From assembly GCA_039680175.1 (NCBI GenBank), contig JBDKTO010000067.1, positions 62,001-126,000 of the forward strand: DNA of 64,000 bases. Reading direction: 5' to 3'. Shown here one piece after another: positions 12,062-16,476 of this stretch. A model generated the notes under the pieces. That model made no database searches. It worked only from the letters and a program-made list of their open reading frames with translations, and was not told the DNA's origin. The position numbers were made by a program, and so were the translations under genes. Each line of letters opens with the position of its first letter. Positions within the stretch are counted from its first letter, which is position 1. The DNA is from Veillonellales bacterium. Lineage in GTDB: Bacteria > Bacillota > Negativicutes > JAAYSF01.

Positions 12062-12838
12062 TTATTTTTTTAACTTATTAAGTTCCTCTAACAATCGATC
12101 ATTCAGAACCTTTATATAGGTTCCTTTCATTCCCAAAGATTTCGACTCAATCACACCGGCACTTTCAAATTTCCGTAACGCATTGACTATGACGGAGCGG
12201 GTAATACCAACCCGATCCGCGATCTTACTGGCGACCAACAGCCCCTCATTGCCGTCCAGCTCGTTTAAAATGTGCATTACGGCTTCCAGTTCCGAATAGG
12301 ATAAAGTTCCCAAGGCCACCTGTACCGTTGCTTTTTTCCGAGCTTCCTCCTCAATCTTCTCACTGCGATCCCGTAGAATCTCCATTCCTACAACTGTAGC
12401 GCCATATTCTGCCAACACTAAATCATCATCATTCATTTCATCATTAAATTTTCCGACAATCAAGGTGCCGATTCGTTCCCCTACGCCATGGATCGGCACA
12501 ATACTAGTATATTTATCACTAAACATGCAGGCAACACCCTCGCTAAATGCGCACATCCCTCTTTTTAATCGCAAATTAGGCGAAGTTTCGGTCACTTTAA
12601 GCAGCCATTCAACATAATACTCGGGGAAATGCCCCAGCTGCAAAACACGCTCCCGCATCAAATTGCATTCAAAATCATCCTGTAAAGCATACCCCAGAAC
12701 ATCTCCCGTTTTACTTGCAATGTAAACATTAGCGCTGATAACGCTGCTTAATACCCGAGATATTTCATCGTATTCTACCTTTTCCGATTTCTGTAACAGT
12801 TTATTTATTTTTCGAGCGCGGTCCAACATTATCGACAT
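12062..12838 (-). CDS. codY: GTP- and branched-chain amino acid-sensing repressor CodY
   Basis: CodY is the global nutritional regulator of Bacillota, sensing isoleucine/valine/leucine and GTP and controlling amino acid, motility and sporulation genes. The 258-residue protein has the N-terminal GAF ligand domain starting [15 protein letters not shown] and the C-terminal winged helix-turn-helix ([26 protein letters not shown], about residues 205-230). ATG 12838 is chosen because AAAGGTGG lies seven bases upstream. It follows hslU as in B. subtilis codVWXY. Confidence 0.95.
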
Positions 12839-12892
12839 GAATAATCCACCTTTCTCTAGGCTGTTCACCTATCATAATCTTTTAAAACAAAC

Positions 12893-14296
12893 TTATAAAA
12901 TAAACCGGCTCAAATCCTGATTTACCACTATATGAGCCAATTTTTCATTTACATAAGCACGATCAATAACAACCACTTTGTCCGATACATCCGGTGCATC
13001 AAACGCCAGATCTTCCAATAACTTTTCCATAATGGTATGCAACCGCCTGGCACCGATATTTTCGGTTTGCGCATTAACCTCACAAGCAATATTTGCTATT
13101 TCATCAATAGCATCTTCGGAAAATTTAATTTTTATTCCTTCTGTTTCCAGCAGCATAATATATTGCTTTATCAAGGCATTTGCCGGTTCCGTCAGTATTT
13201 GGCGAAAATCATCCTTCGATAAGCTGGTTAACTCCACCCTGATAGGGAAGCGTCCTTGCAATTCCGGTATCAGGTCGGATGGTTTGGAAATATGAAATGA
13301 ACCGGCAGCAATAAACAAAACGTGATCGGTTTTCACCGGGCCATATTTGGTCATAACGGTTGATCCTTCAACAATCGGCAGTATATCACGCTGCACACCT
13401 TCCCGTGAAACGTCTGGCCCTGAAGAATGGCCGGGGCCGGAAATTTTATCAATTTCATCAAGAAAAATAATGCCGTAATTCTCCGCCAAATTGATAGCAA
13501 CCGTATTCACTTCATCCATATCAATTAATTTTTGGGCTTCCTCCTGGATAAACAGTTTCCGAGCGTTAGCTACCGTAACCTTGCGCTTCTTCTGCTTCCG
13601 GGGCAAGAAATTGCCCAGCATATCCTGAATATTCATTCCCATCTCTTCAACGCCGGACCCGGCAAACATGCCCAGCATCGGATTGGAAGTGTCCTCTACA
13701 GTAATCTCAATTAAACTGTCTTCCAGCTCGCCATTATTCAGCTTTTTCTGCCACTCTTCCTGACTTTTATCCGGATTAGGTGAAGGCTCCGGTGCCTGAG
13801 CTTCTTGCTGCTTCTCAATACCGCTGCTGGCGGAAAATAACATTTCAAACGGATTCTTAGACGACTCTTTCTTTGTCGCTGGCCGAAAATATTCCAGTAT
13901 TCTCTCATCCGCCAATTTACGTGCCTGATCATTCACCGCCAGCATTTTTTGCTGCTTGACGATGCGAATCGCAGTTTCAACCAAATCCCGTATCATCGAT
14001 TCAACATCCCGTCCTACATAACCCACTTCAGTGAATTTTGTTGCTTCTACTTTAACAAAAGGAGCATTCACTAATTTGGCCAGCCGTCGGGCGATCTCAG
14101 TTTTTCCCACTCCGGTTGGACCGATCATGAGAATGTTCTTAGGGATTATTTCCTCTTTAAATTCGGCAGGCAGTTGTTTGCTGCGCCAGCGATTGCGCAA
14201 GGCTACGGCTACGGATTTCTTAGCCTGCTGTTGACCAACAATATATTTGTTCAATTCAGCCACAATCTGTTTAGGCGTCAGTTCGATCAACTTCAT
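12893..14296 (-). CDS. hslU: HslUV protease ATPase subunit HslU (ClpY/CodX)
   Basis: This AAA+ unfoldase feeds the HslV peptidase. Visible motifs are Walker [17 protein letters not shown] (about residues 55-70), the inserted I domain (roughly 110-240), Walker [14 protein letters not shown], and the sensor-2 region [19 protein letters not shown]. The start is uncertain: ATG 14296 directly abuts a GGGGGG run, whereas TTG two codons later (14290) is spaced six bases from it and is the better candidate by spacing. The gene lies nine bases after hslV and before codY. Confidence 0.96.
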
Positions 14297-14305
14297 CCCC
14301 CCTAA

Positions 14306-14836
14306 TCATAATTCCTCTACCATAATGTGATCGTTTGTGTAAATACAAATAGCTGAGGCAATTTCAATTGCTTCCCTGGCAATTTCAGCCGCCGATAAAT
14401 CAGAATGCTTGATCATCGCCCGGGCGGCCGATAGCGCATAAGCTCCACCGGAACCGATGGCAGTTACCCCGTCATCAGGCTCAATCACTTCGCCATTACC
14501 GGATATAATTAACATATGCTCTGCATCAGCAACAATAAGTAATGCCTCTAATCGTCGTAATACCCGATCCATACGCCACTCTTTCGCCAGTTCAACAGCC
14601 GAACGCATCATATTGCCGTTAAATTCCTCAAGTTTGACTTCAAATTTACTAAAAAGGGTAAACGCATCGGCAACTGAGCCGGCAAATCCGGCTAAAACTT
14701 TCCCGTGATACAAACGGCGAACCTTTTTTGCGTTATGCTTCATCACCGTATTGCCTCCAAAAGTAACTTGACCATCGCCAGCAATCGCAACTTTATCTCG
14801 GTGATGAACCGCGACGATTGTTGTAGCATGAAACAT
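14306..14836 (-). CDS. hslV: HslUV peptidase subunit HslV (ClpQ/CodW)
   Basis: HslV is a proteasome-like N-terminal nucleophile peptidase. The protein starts [27 protein letters not shown]; the conserved TT pair and GDGQVTFG match the family, as do [18 protein letters not shown] and the C-terminal [14 protein letters not shown] 14836 (176 residues) is spaced eight bases from AGGAGG; the upstream GTG overlaps that site. The three residues before the Thr pair resemble B. subtilis CodW (which has a Ser there after processing), so it is not obvious which residue becomes the mature nucleophile. Confidence 0.95.
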
Positions 14837-14896
14837 AAAGGTCACCTCCTAAGCGCCTAGATTGGTATACTGACTGCAATCTCTTTTAAATGTCTC

Positions 14897-15102
14897 CTAT
14901 TTCCCAAATTCATAAGCTAAGAATGAATCAGCAGCAACGTCACATTTGCAAAAAGCGCCTCACCAACATCTTGCGAAATTGCAAATACGACGAAACATTC
15001 AATATCTGCGTAAGTTCGTAAGGGTGTGCTGTGAAGCGTTCTGTTCAATCGATAGATATGGAGGAACTGCTGTATTGGCTGAGTCAATTTTTTCGGCCAC
15101 AC
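14897..15102 (-). pseudogene. Relic of tyrosine recombinase gene xerC (codV position)
   Basis: This 310-base gap sits where xerC/codV lies between trmFO and hslV in many Bacillota. Three overlapping minus-strand frames carry successive pieces of a XerC core-binding domain. One frame gives PIQQFLHI and later ADIECFVVF and ANVT. A second gives YLSIEQNASQHTLTNLRRY at 15002-15058, closed by TGA. A third gives SFLAYEFGK at 14900-14926, closed by TAG. Joined, they read like a XerC N-terminal domain broken by small indels. The catalytic domain (normally about 200 further residues) is absent. A 61-codon open frame here is not itself a credible gene. Confidence 0.72.
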
Positions 15103-15156
15103 TTTAAAGCGAACTGTAACAAGATATGCTAATTTATACTAGCATAGCCAAGAAAA

Positions 15157-16476
15157 TTATGCAAGAATATTGTCGAATTTTTCTTTAAATTTCCTCAAAT
15201 TTGTCATTGAGCGCTCTGCGATAAGACTGTTCTTGACCTTTTTATCCTTAATCCGCTGCTCCAGCGGTATCATTAAACCGAAATTAATATTCATCGGCTG
15301 AAAGTGGGAAGGATCTGCCTCCGTAATATACCGGCTTAAAGCGCCGTGAGCTGTTTCAGCGGGAAACACAAGGGGCTCTTTCCCTTTAGCCAGGCATAGC
15401 GCATTAATTCCTGCCATCAGACCGGATGCGGCAGATTCCACATAGCCTTCCACTCCGGTAATCTGACCGGCAAAAAAGATATCCGGTCGGATTTTCATTT
15501 GCATAGTGGACTGCAAAATTCGCGGCGAATTAATAAAAGTATTGCGGTGCATCACGCCAAAACGAAGAAACTCCGCCTGCTCCAAGCCGGGAATCAAATG
15601 AAATACCCGTTCCTGCTCCGGCCATTTTAAATGAGTTTGAAAACCGACAAGATTAAACAGTGTCCCGGCAAAATTGTCCTGCCGCAATTGAATAACCGCA
15701 TAAGGAATTTTCCCTGTGGACGGATTGATTAATCCCACCGGCTTTAGCGGTCCAAACCGCAATGTGTCTATTCCCCTTGCCGCCATTTCCTCTACCGGCA
15801 TACAGCCTTCAAAGAAAACGGTCTTCTCAAAATTTTTAACCGGTGTTGTCTGCGCTTGAGTCAATTCATTCCAAAAATTTTCATATTCTACTTTATTCAT
15901 CGGACAATTGAGATAATCTTCGTCCCCCTTGCCATAACGGGAAGCCCGAAATATTTTATTCATATCCAGGGATTCTCCTGTTACTATTGGCGCTGCGGCA
16001 TCGTAAAAATACAAATAATCCTGTCCGGTCAGTTCTCCGATCGCTTGTGATAACGCCGGCGAAGTTAACGGCCCACTGGCAATAATCAAAAGCTCGCAGC
16101 GGGGAATGTCGGTAATTTCCTCATGAATTACATTCACCCGGGGATGAACGGTCAATGCATTCGTTATGTAAGCACTAAATGATTGGCGATCAACTGCCAA
16201 CGCTCCTCCTGCCGGTACCCTGCTATTGTCTGCCGCCTTCATGATCAAGGAATCAAAGCGCCGCATTTCTTCTTTCAATAGCCCGACTGCATTTTCAACT
16301 GCAGTTGCCCGCAGGGAATTGCTGCAAACCAATTCGGCAAACTGATCCGTATGGTGGGCAGGCGGCATGACCTTAGGCCGCATTTCGTATAACTCAACGT
16401 CAATTCCTGCCTGAGCAATTTGCCAGGCGGCCTCGCTTCCGGCCAAACCGGCTCCAATCACAGTTACCTTAGCCAC
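15157..16476 (-). CDS. trmFO: tRNA (m5U54) methyltransferase TrmFO, FAD/folate-dependent
   Basis: TrmFO methylates U54 in the T-loop of tRNA using methylenetetrahydrofolate and reduced FAD. The 439-residue protein starts with the FAD-binding dinucleotide fold ([14 protein letters not shown], residues 8-21) and has the GidA-like segments [17 protein letters not shown] and the C-terminal FAD site [16 protein letters not shown]. It begins with GTG (CGGAGG upstream) and overlaps the topA end by eight bases, so it is probably co-translated with topA. Confidence 0.96.

Follow-up and report, generated by a model that had tools for sequence, protein, structure and literature searches.

A Conserved Terminator-Type RNA Hairpin Within the xerC Remnant Ahead of hslVU-codY in a Veillonellales Bacterium

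Introduction

The tyrosine recombinase XerC (CodV) works together with XerD to resolve chromosome dimers. Single-recombinase Xer systems, i.e., XerS/difSL and XerH/difH, have been described as well (PMC5357621). Intrinsic terminators are found in leaders or inside open reading frames, as 3'-end mapping in E. coli demonstrated (PMC7815308), and ribosome coupling suppresses terminators within open reading frames (PMC5021804). Furthermore, a protein gene can give rise to a regulatory RNA, which applies to 5'tnpA of IS200 (PMC12594629).

Here, we analyzed a stretch of 64,000 nucleotides from a Veillonellales bacterium (assembly GCA_039680175.1, contig JBDKTO010000067.1, positions 62,001 to 126,000), referred to as the window, with a focus on the gap between trmFO and hslV. 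Its content resembles XerC (CodV; NCBIfam TIGR02224) in position, in a recognizable N-terminal core-binding sequence, and in the last codons, but lacks the catalytic domain and an open frame; in four relatives, XerC is full-length but lacks the catalytic tyrosine. The gap also contains an RNA hairpin, which shares with intrinsic terminators and attenuators the G+C-rich stem with an immediate U run, the position between promoter and gene, and, in some genomes, the location inside an open reading frame. It differs from them by a branched or internally paired loop of ~70 nt with conserved sequence, which is long for a classical terminator, and from terminator-type attenuators in that no antiterminator was recognized and in that it persists after its host open reading frame is gone. 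As in 5'tnpA, an RNA structure with its own role lies in a coding region; however, the RNA described here would act in cis within the leader of an operon, and several lineages deleted the gene around the hairpin. A terminator-type leader RNA that is embedded in, and then outlives, a protein gene is unusual. As in the XerS and XerH systems, one Xer recombinase is left per chromosome, but here it is a canonical XerD.

Results and Discussion

The trmFO-hslV Gap Contains a Remnant of xerC

The minus strand of the window shows the gene order dprA-topA-trmFO-[310 bp]-hslV-hslU-codY (Table 1), and the trmFO-hslV gap (310–320 bp) is devoid of a gene-sized open reading frame. Relatives of the class carry a xerC open reading frame of ~300 codons at this place, abutting hslV, in line with the synteny from which an earlier note on this DNA had predicted xerC. 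We built a profile from the XerC proteins of 12 relatives and searched it against six-frame translations of the gap. It matched one minus-strand frame at profile positions 8–89 and, more weakly, a second frame. The homology proposed in the earlier note was thereby confirmed, and all four peptides that it quoted were found in the order given. Just ahead of hslV, a short C-terminal scrap is the best match to the final 20 residues of XerC, with none of 300 shuffles being as good. The N-terminal remnant together with this C-terminal trace points to an internal deletion that retained both ends of the gene. Judged by homology and by the trmFO-xerC-hslV synteny of relatives, the gap is a true xerC remnant after deletion of most of the gene. 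The interval 14897–15102 assigned to it before does hold remnant sequence, but ends too early to include the C-terminal trace.

An open frame of ~300 amino acids with core-binding and catalytic domains is absent from the gap; frames are broken, and neither the catalytic domain nor the catalytic residues R-K-H-R-H-Y of XerC occur there, so that the catalytic half is lost as previously stated. An accidental GTG-initiated open reading frame of 61 amino acids (14917–15102) spans the main-frame remnant and the hairpin.

Table 1. Positions of features at the trmFO-hslV locus within the window.
Feature	Position	Strand	Evidence or remark
trmFO, upstream neighbor	15157..16476	-	
-35 hexamer TTGCAT, overlapping the trmFO stop codon	15159..15164	-	read from sequence, nearly class-wide motif
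Extended -10 (TGC-TAGTAT) of the same putative promoter	15136..15141	-	class conservation
N-terminal XerC remnant, main frame (PKKLTQPIQQFLHI...ADIECFVVF...VGEALFANVTLLLIHS)	14917..15102	-	XerC profile, E = 2.1e-9
N-terminal XerC remnant, second frame (YLSIEQNASQHTL)	15020..15058	-	XerC profile, E = 2.6e-4
Conserved RNA hairpin and T run, terminator-type element, 92 nt	14950..15041	-	fold, covariance model, covariation
Hairpin 5' arm GCTTCAC	15031..15037	-	
Hairpin 3' arm GTGAGGC	14957..14963	-	
T run (TTTTT) immediately 3' of the hairpin	14950..14954	-	kept in all fossils
C-terminal XerC remnant RLQSVYQ (relatives: RLKSVYxxAHPRA-stop)	14862..14882	-	match to last 20 XerC residues, p = 0.003
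hslV, first gene 3' of the hairpin element	14306..14836	-	start ATG 14836; GGAGG 14845–14849
hslU	12893..14296	-	
codY	12062..12868	-	

The Core of the Remnant Is a Conserved RNA Hairpin

We aligned 12 xerC-derived gaps, i.e., those of the genome under study, nine Pelosinus-family genomes, and two genomes of family f18. All share one block of ~92 nt that ends in a T run, and the limits of this retained core are identical in all fossil lineages, while the flanks differ. In f18 and f6.g38, the flanks are largely gone and the stretch between promoter and hairpin has been lost, but the hairpin was kept. A single long hairpin is the fold of this block in all fossils (z-scores of −2.3 to −5.1 in those folded), and the minima of sliding-window stability fall on the element in eight of eight fossils scanned. 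In the genome under study, the fold reaches −24.8 kcal/mol (z = −2.31; 3 of 200 shuffles equally good), and the element scores 79 bits against our covariance model R1. Folding of the piece 14960–15056, in which the 3' arm is cut off, revealed no structure. The description as a fossil thus holds with regard to xerC, but not in the sense of a mere fossil, as the 92-nt core, missed by the earlier note, is a conserved RNA hairpin.

Identity of the element between genomes is 65–82% overall, where fourfold-degenerate sites reach only 24–46%. This applies to the fossil pairs L018/L028 (0.82 vs. 0.27), L041/L047 (0.81 vs. 0.38), and L012/L015 (0.80 vs. 0.46), as well as to the genome under study compared to Pelosinus (0.71 vs. 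0.24); for the latter pair, a third-position excess between the remnants shows that conservation was partly established while both were coding. Individual fossils retain 13–16 of 16 consensus pairs and all keep T5; the genome under study retains 14 of 16 (p = 0.012 under neutral decay), and retention of its hairpin energy under neutral decay was not significant (p = 0.21). Taken together, the fossils hold 130 pairs compared to 90 (sd 5) expected by neutral decay, although these rows are not independent. More generally, the alignment rows are related by descent, and counts overstate their independence. The element is dispensable, as families f2, f5, f13, and f17 lost the hairpin together with xerC.

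Features of an intrinsic terminator are present, including a stable stem-loop on the transcribed strand, a U run right after the stem (T5–T7 in all fossils), and a location downstream of a promoter, known by conservation, and upstream of a gene. A scan for consensus promoters and terminators made no call at either the promoter or the hairpin; the loop is longer than the 3–8 nt allowed by the scan, and the −35 hexamer departs from consensus. No competing antiterminator fold or regulatory input was apparent in the leader fold, and the leader as a whole is of ordinary stability (z = +1.6). Within 14500–15500, no Rfam match reached any gathering score, and a literature search yielded no description of the element. 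As a side observation, two additional hairpins that resemble terminators and carry T runs follow the xerC-derived one in locus L028 (f18.g20), ahead of hslV.

The Hairpin Is Spelled by xerC Codons in Relatives

At the equivalent place, xerC codons spell the hairpin in f1.g2, f1.g3, f10, f32, f24.g33, f27, and f30, and it is present in both intact and catalytically dead xerC genes. The earlier note had regarded conservation of the interval as non-coding sequence in relatives as speaking against a xerC origin; both apply here, since the hairpin is conserved with and without xerC alongside the homology to this gene. We compared the stability of the embedded hairpin to 500 synonymous shuffles that kept the protein and used the gene's own codons. 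The best five genes showed z-scores of −4.6, −4.5, −4.0, −3.8, and −3.7, with 0–1 of 500 shuffles being as stable. The hairpin was the most extreme window of xerC in seven of ten genes scanned and ranked fourth or higher in the remaining ones. It was absent from most xerC genes examined in f23, f26, f8, f19, and f20.

Covariation further supported the structure. Over 19 sequences, 10 cells had changed on both sides compared to 3.9 (sd 1.5) in shuffles, with 0 of 500 shuffles as high, and pairing fell from 93% to ~40% when the partner was shifted by 1–3 columns. An alignment of 29 sequences fitted to the model agrees, although more weakly. The outer stem GCCTCAC/GTGAGGC, for example, is replaced by GCTTCAC/GTGAAG in f18 and f10.g30, and the genome under study represents the U-G intermediate. 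G-U cells outnumber A-C cells by 60 to 5, which places the RNA on the sense strand of hslV. The hairpin therefore predates the death of xerC and is under selection at synonymous positions wherever genomes still bear the open reading frame.

The Element Occurs Once per Genome Downstream of a Conserved Promoter Motif

Of 300 class genomes searched with the covariance model, 42 contain the element, once per genome and always at the trmFO-hslV locus. Matches in other Firmicutes were weak and probably reflect coding similarity of xerC. Upstream of the hairpin, a promoter-like motif (TTGCAT-N17-TAGTATAAAT, −10 TAGTAT; 15136–15164, minus strand) is located, and almost every class member compared, fossils included, has its general form TTGCAT-N16/17-TAGTATAAAT. 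Promoter function of TTGCAT/TAGTAT is putative, and a transcript would start near 15129. The order on the minus strand is promoter motif, hairpin with U run, and hslV-hslU-codY.

At the loci L032 and L033 (f7.g9), the trmFO-hslV gap contains an unrelated hairpin of 78–80 nt with a T run (z = −7.7 and −5.15), in genomes that lack XerC or XerD matches at E < 1e-25. A different hairpin at the same place suggests that a terminator in the hslV leader is useful in itself.

A Leader Attenuator That Outlived Its Gene Is the Favored Explanation

In our view, the hairpin is probably an attenuator of the intrinsic-terminator type that belongs to the (xerC-)hslVU-codY operon, was embedded in xerC codons, and outlived the gene. 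Polymerase would start at the promoter by the trmFO end, transcribe ~90 nt, and then produce the 92-nt hairpin and U5 before reaching hslV-hslU-codY. The hairpin would thus be met within ~180 nt of the start, and U5 after the G+C-rich stem base has the form of an intrinsic terminator, at which transcription may end in a regulated manner. In xerC-bearing genomes, where the hairpin lies in codons of the core-binding domain, it could serve as an early terminator or attenuator that translating ribosomes override; ribosomes on the first 55 xerC codons would open the stem, and operon expression would follow xerC translation. After loss of xerC, the hairpin would remain as a leader terminator of hslVU-codY, damping the operon either constantly or under separate control. 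The wider history, in which a structured RNA arose inside recombinase codons, survived the loss of catalytic residues and independent gene deletions in at least two or three lineages, and now is a stand-alone leader attenuator of hslVU-codY, is one to which we give about even chances.

Plain pseudogene decay, with xerC recently and independently deleted in each lineage and the hairpin being leftover coding sequence, would account for the broken frames, the differing deletion junctions, the C-terminal scraps, and the third-position excess between the own and Pelosinus remnants, and retention of the N-terminal part is partly explicable by the need to keep the promoter. We consider it unlikely and already weakened, as every lineage retained a core with identical boundaries that stops at the T run, the hairpin survived in f18 and f6.g38 despite loss of the sequence between it and the promoter, identity of the element between two fossil genomes lies far above that of fourfold sites, pairs and T run are retained beyond neutral expectation, and synonymous sites are under selection where the open reading frame still exists. 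A similarly low probability applies to the view that the hairpin terminates the dprA-topA-trmFO transcript coming from upstream, with hslVU using a separate promoter downstream of it. Its place after trmFO, its terminal T run, and the different hairpin with T run at the equivalent place in f7 genomes fit this idea, but a conserved promoter intervenes between trmFO and the hairpin, the hairpin lies within xerC in genomes where this gene abuts hslV, and we noticed no conserved promoter in the segment from the hairpin to hslV.

Two further possibilities concern the product itself. Promoter, defined length, T run, and conserved loop sequence would also suit an independent trans-acting small RNA of ~180 nt ending near 14950, and small RNAs derived from open reading frames and 5'-UTRs exist (PMC7815308; PMC12594629). 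Conservation is, however, limited to the hairpin, and since the promoter-hairpin segment varies in length and sequence, it offers no conserved seed, which renders this option quite improbable. A short peptide from the 61-amino-acid frame (14917–15102), which is open from GTG across the hairpin, has hardly any probability, because a good ribosome-binding site is missing and the frames of relatives are broken at different places; a conserved peptide was rejected from these frames.

If the favored attenuator reading is correct, one DNA stretch carried two messages that were separated naturally, with the protein message erased and the RNA message kept, and it would allow one to test cleanly if terminators within open reading frames are real regulators. 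The locus would also add an undescribed RNA element for an operon of a protease and a nutrient sensor (hslVU-codY), and it cautions that "pseudogene remnants" include cases of functional RNA.

XerD Is the Sole Xer Recombinase of the Genome

The sole Xer recombinase of the genome is a canonical XerD with all catalytic residues (G000:C45:31495-32379). TIGR02225 is its best NCBIfam model (406 bits; cutoff 329.6), and the XerS model yields 143 bits, below its cutoff of 267, so that the protein belongs to neither XerS nor XerH. No further match to this XerD at E < 1e-25 was found anywhere in the genome, which rules out a relocated xerC, and its further tyrosine recombinases resemble phage enzymes or integrases. 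The idea that dimer resolution relies on another recombinase is therefore sound. Guessed palindromic XerD half-site patterns gave scattered, inconsistent matches and no consistent dif site. With the own XerD as query, neither XerC nor XerD was found at E < 1e-25 in genomes of families f4, f7, f12, and f14, and f12 genome G013 has only a 32% identical protein.

The xerC Locus Exists in Four States

About 70 trmFO-hslV loci of the class could be sorted into four states. The first comprises active XerC, which applies to f3, f8, f10.g12, f19, f20, f21, f23, f24, f26, f27, f30, and f32. Full-length XerC without the catalytic tyrosine is found in f1.g2, f1.g3, f10.g30, and f31.g62, fossil gaps of 220–345 bp in the genome under study, Pelosinus and a sister genus, and f18, and clean loss of xerC in f2, f4, f5, f12, f13, f14, and f17. 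The XerC proteins of L011, L016, L017, and L042 are full-length with intact frames, having lost Tyr and at least one catalytic His. A comparison of the dead XerCs L011 and L016 (dS ~1.4, dN ~0.27, pN/pS 0.36) with an active pair at similar dS (pN/pS 0.24) shows that dead XerCs are not decaying and that these two are under purifying selection; the dead XerCs could act as structural partners of XerD or serve a different function. As full-length, catalytically dead XerC occurs in genomes of the same family, catalysis may have been lost prior to the gene. A five-protein tree (FastTree), with weak support for its deep branches, places fossil, dead, and active lineages next to each other, which indicates that loss of catalysis and of the gene happened repeatedly. 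With all four states existing beside a highly conserved XerD, dimer resolution by XerD without a catalytic partner becomes testable.

Two additional loci caught our interest. In XerC of L255 (G017, f16.g18; 303 amino acids), Gln takes the place of the first catalytic His, and the motif preceding Tyr is altered; the xerC gene carries the hairpin (46 bits), and the genome has no HslV match at E < 1e-40. XerC of L053 (G134, f23.g29) has Gln instead of the first catalytic Arg (with YINV following the nucleophile region), which could hint at another inactive copy.
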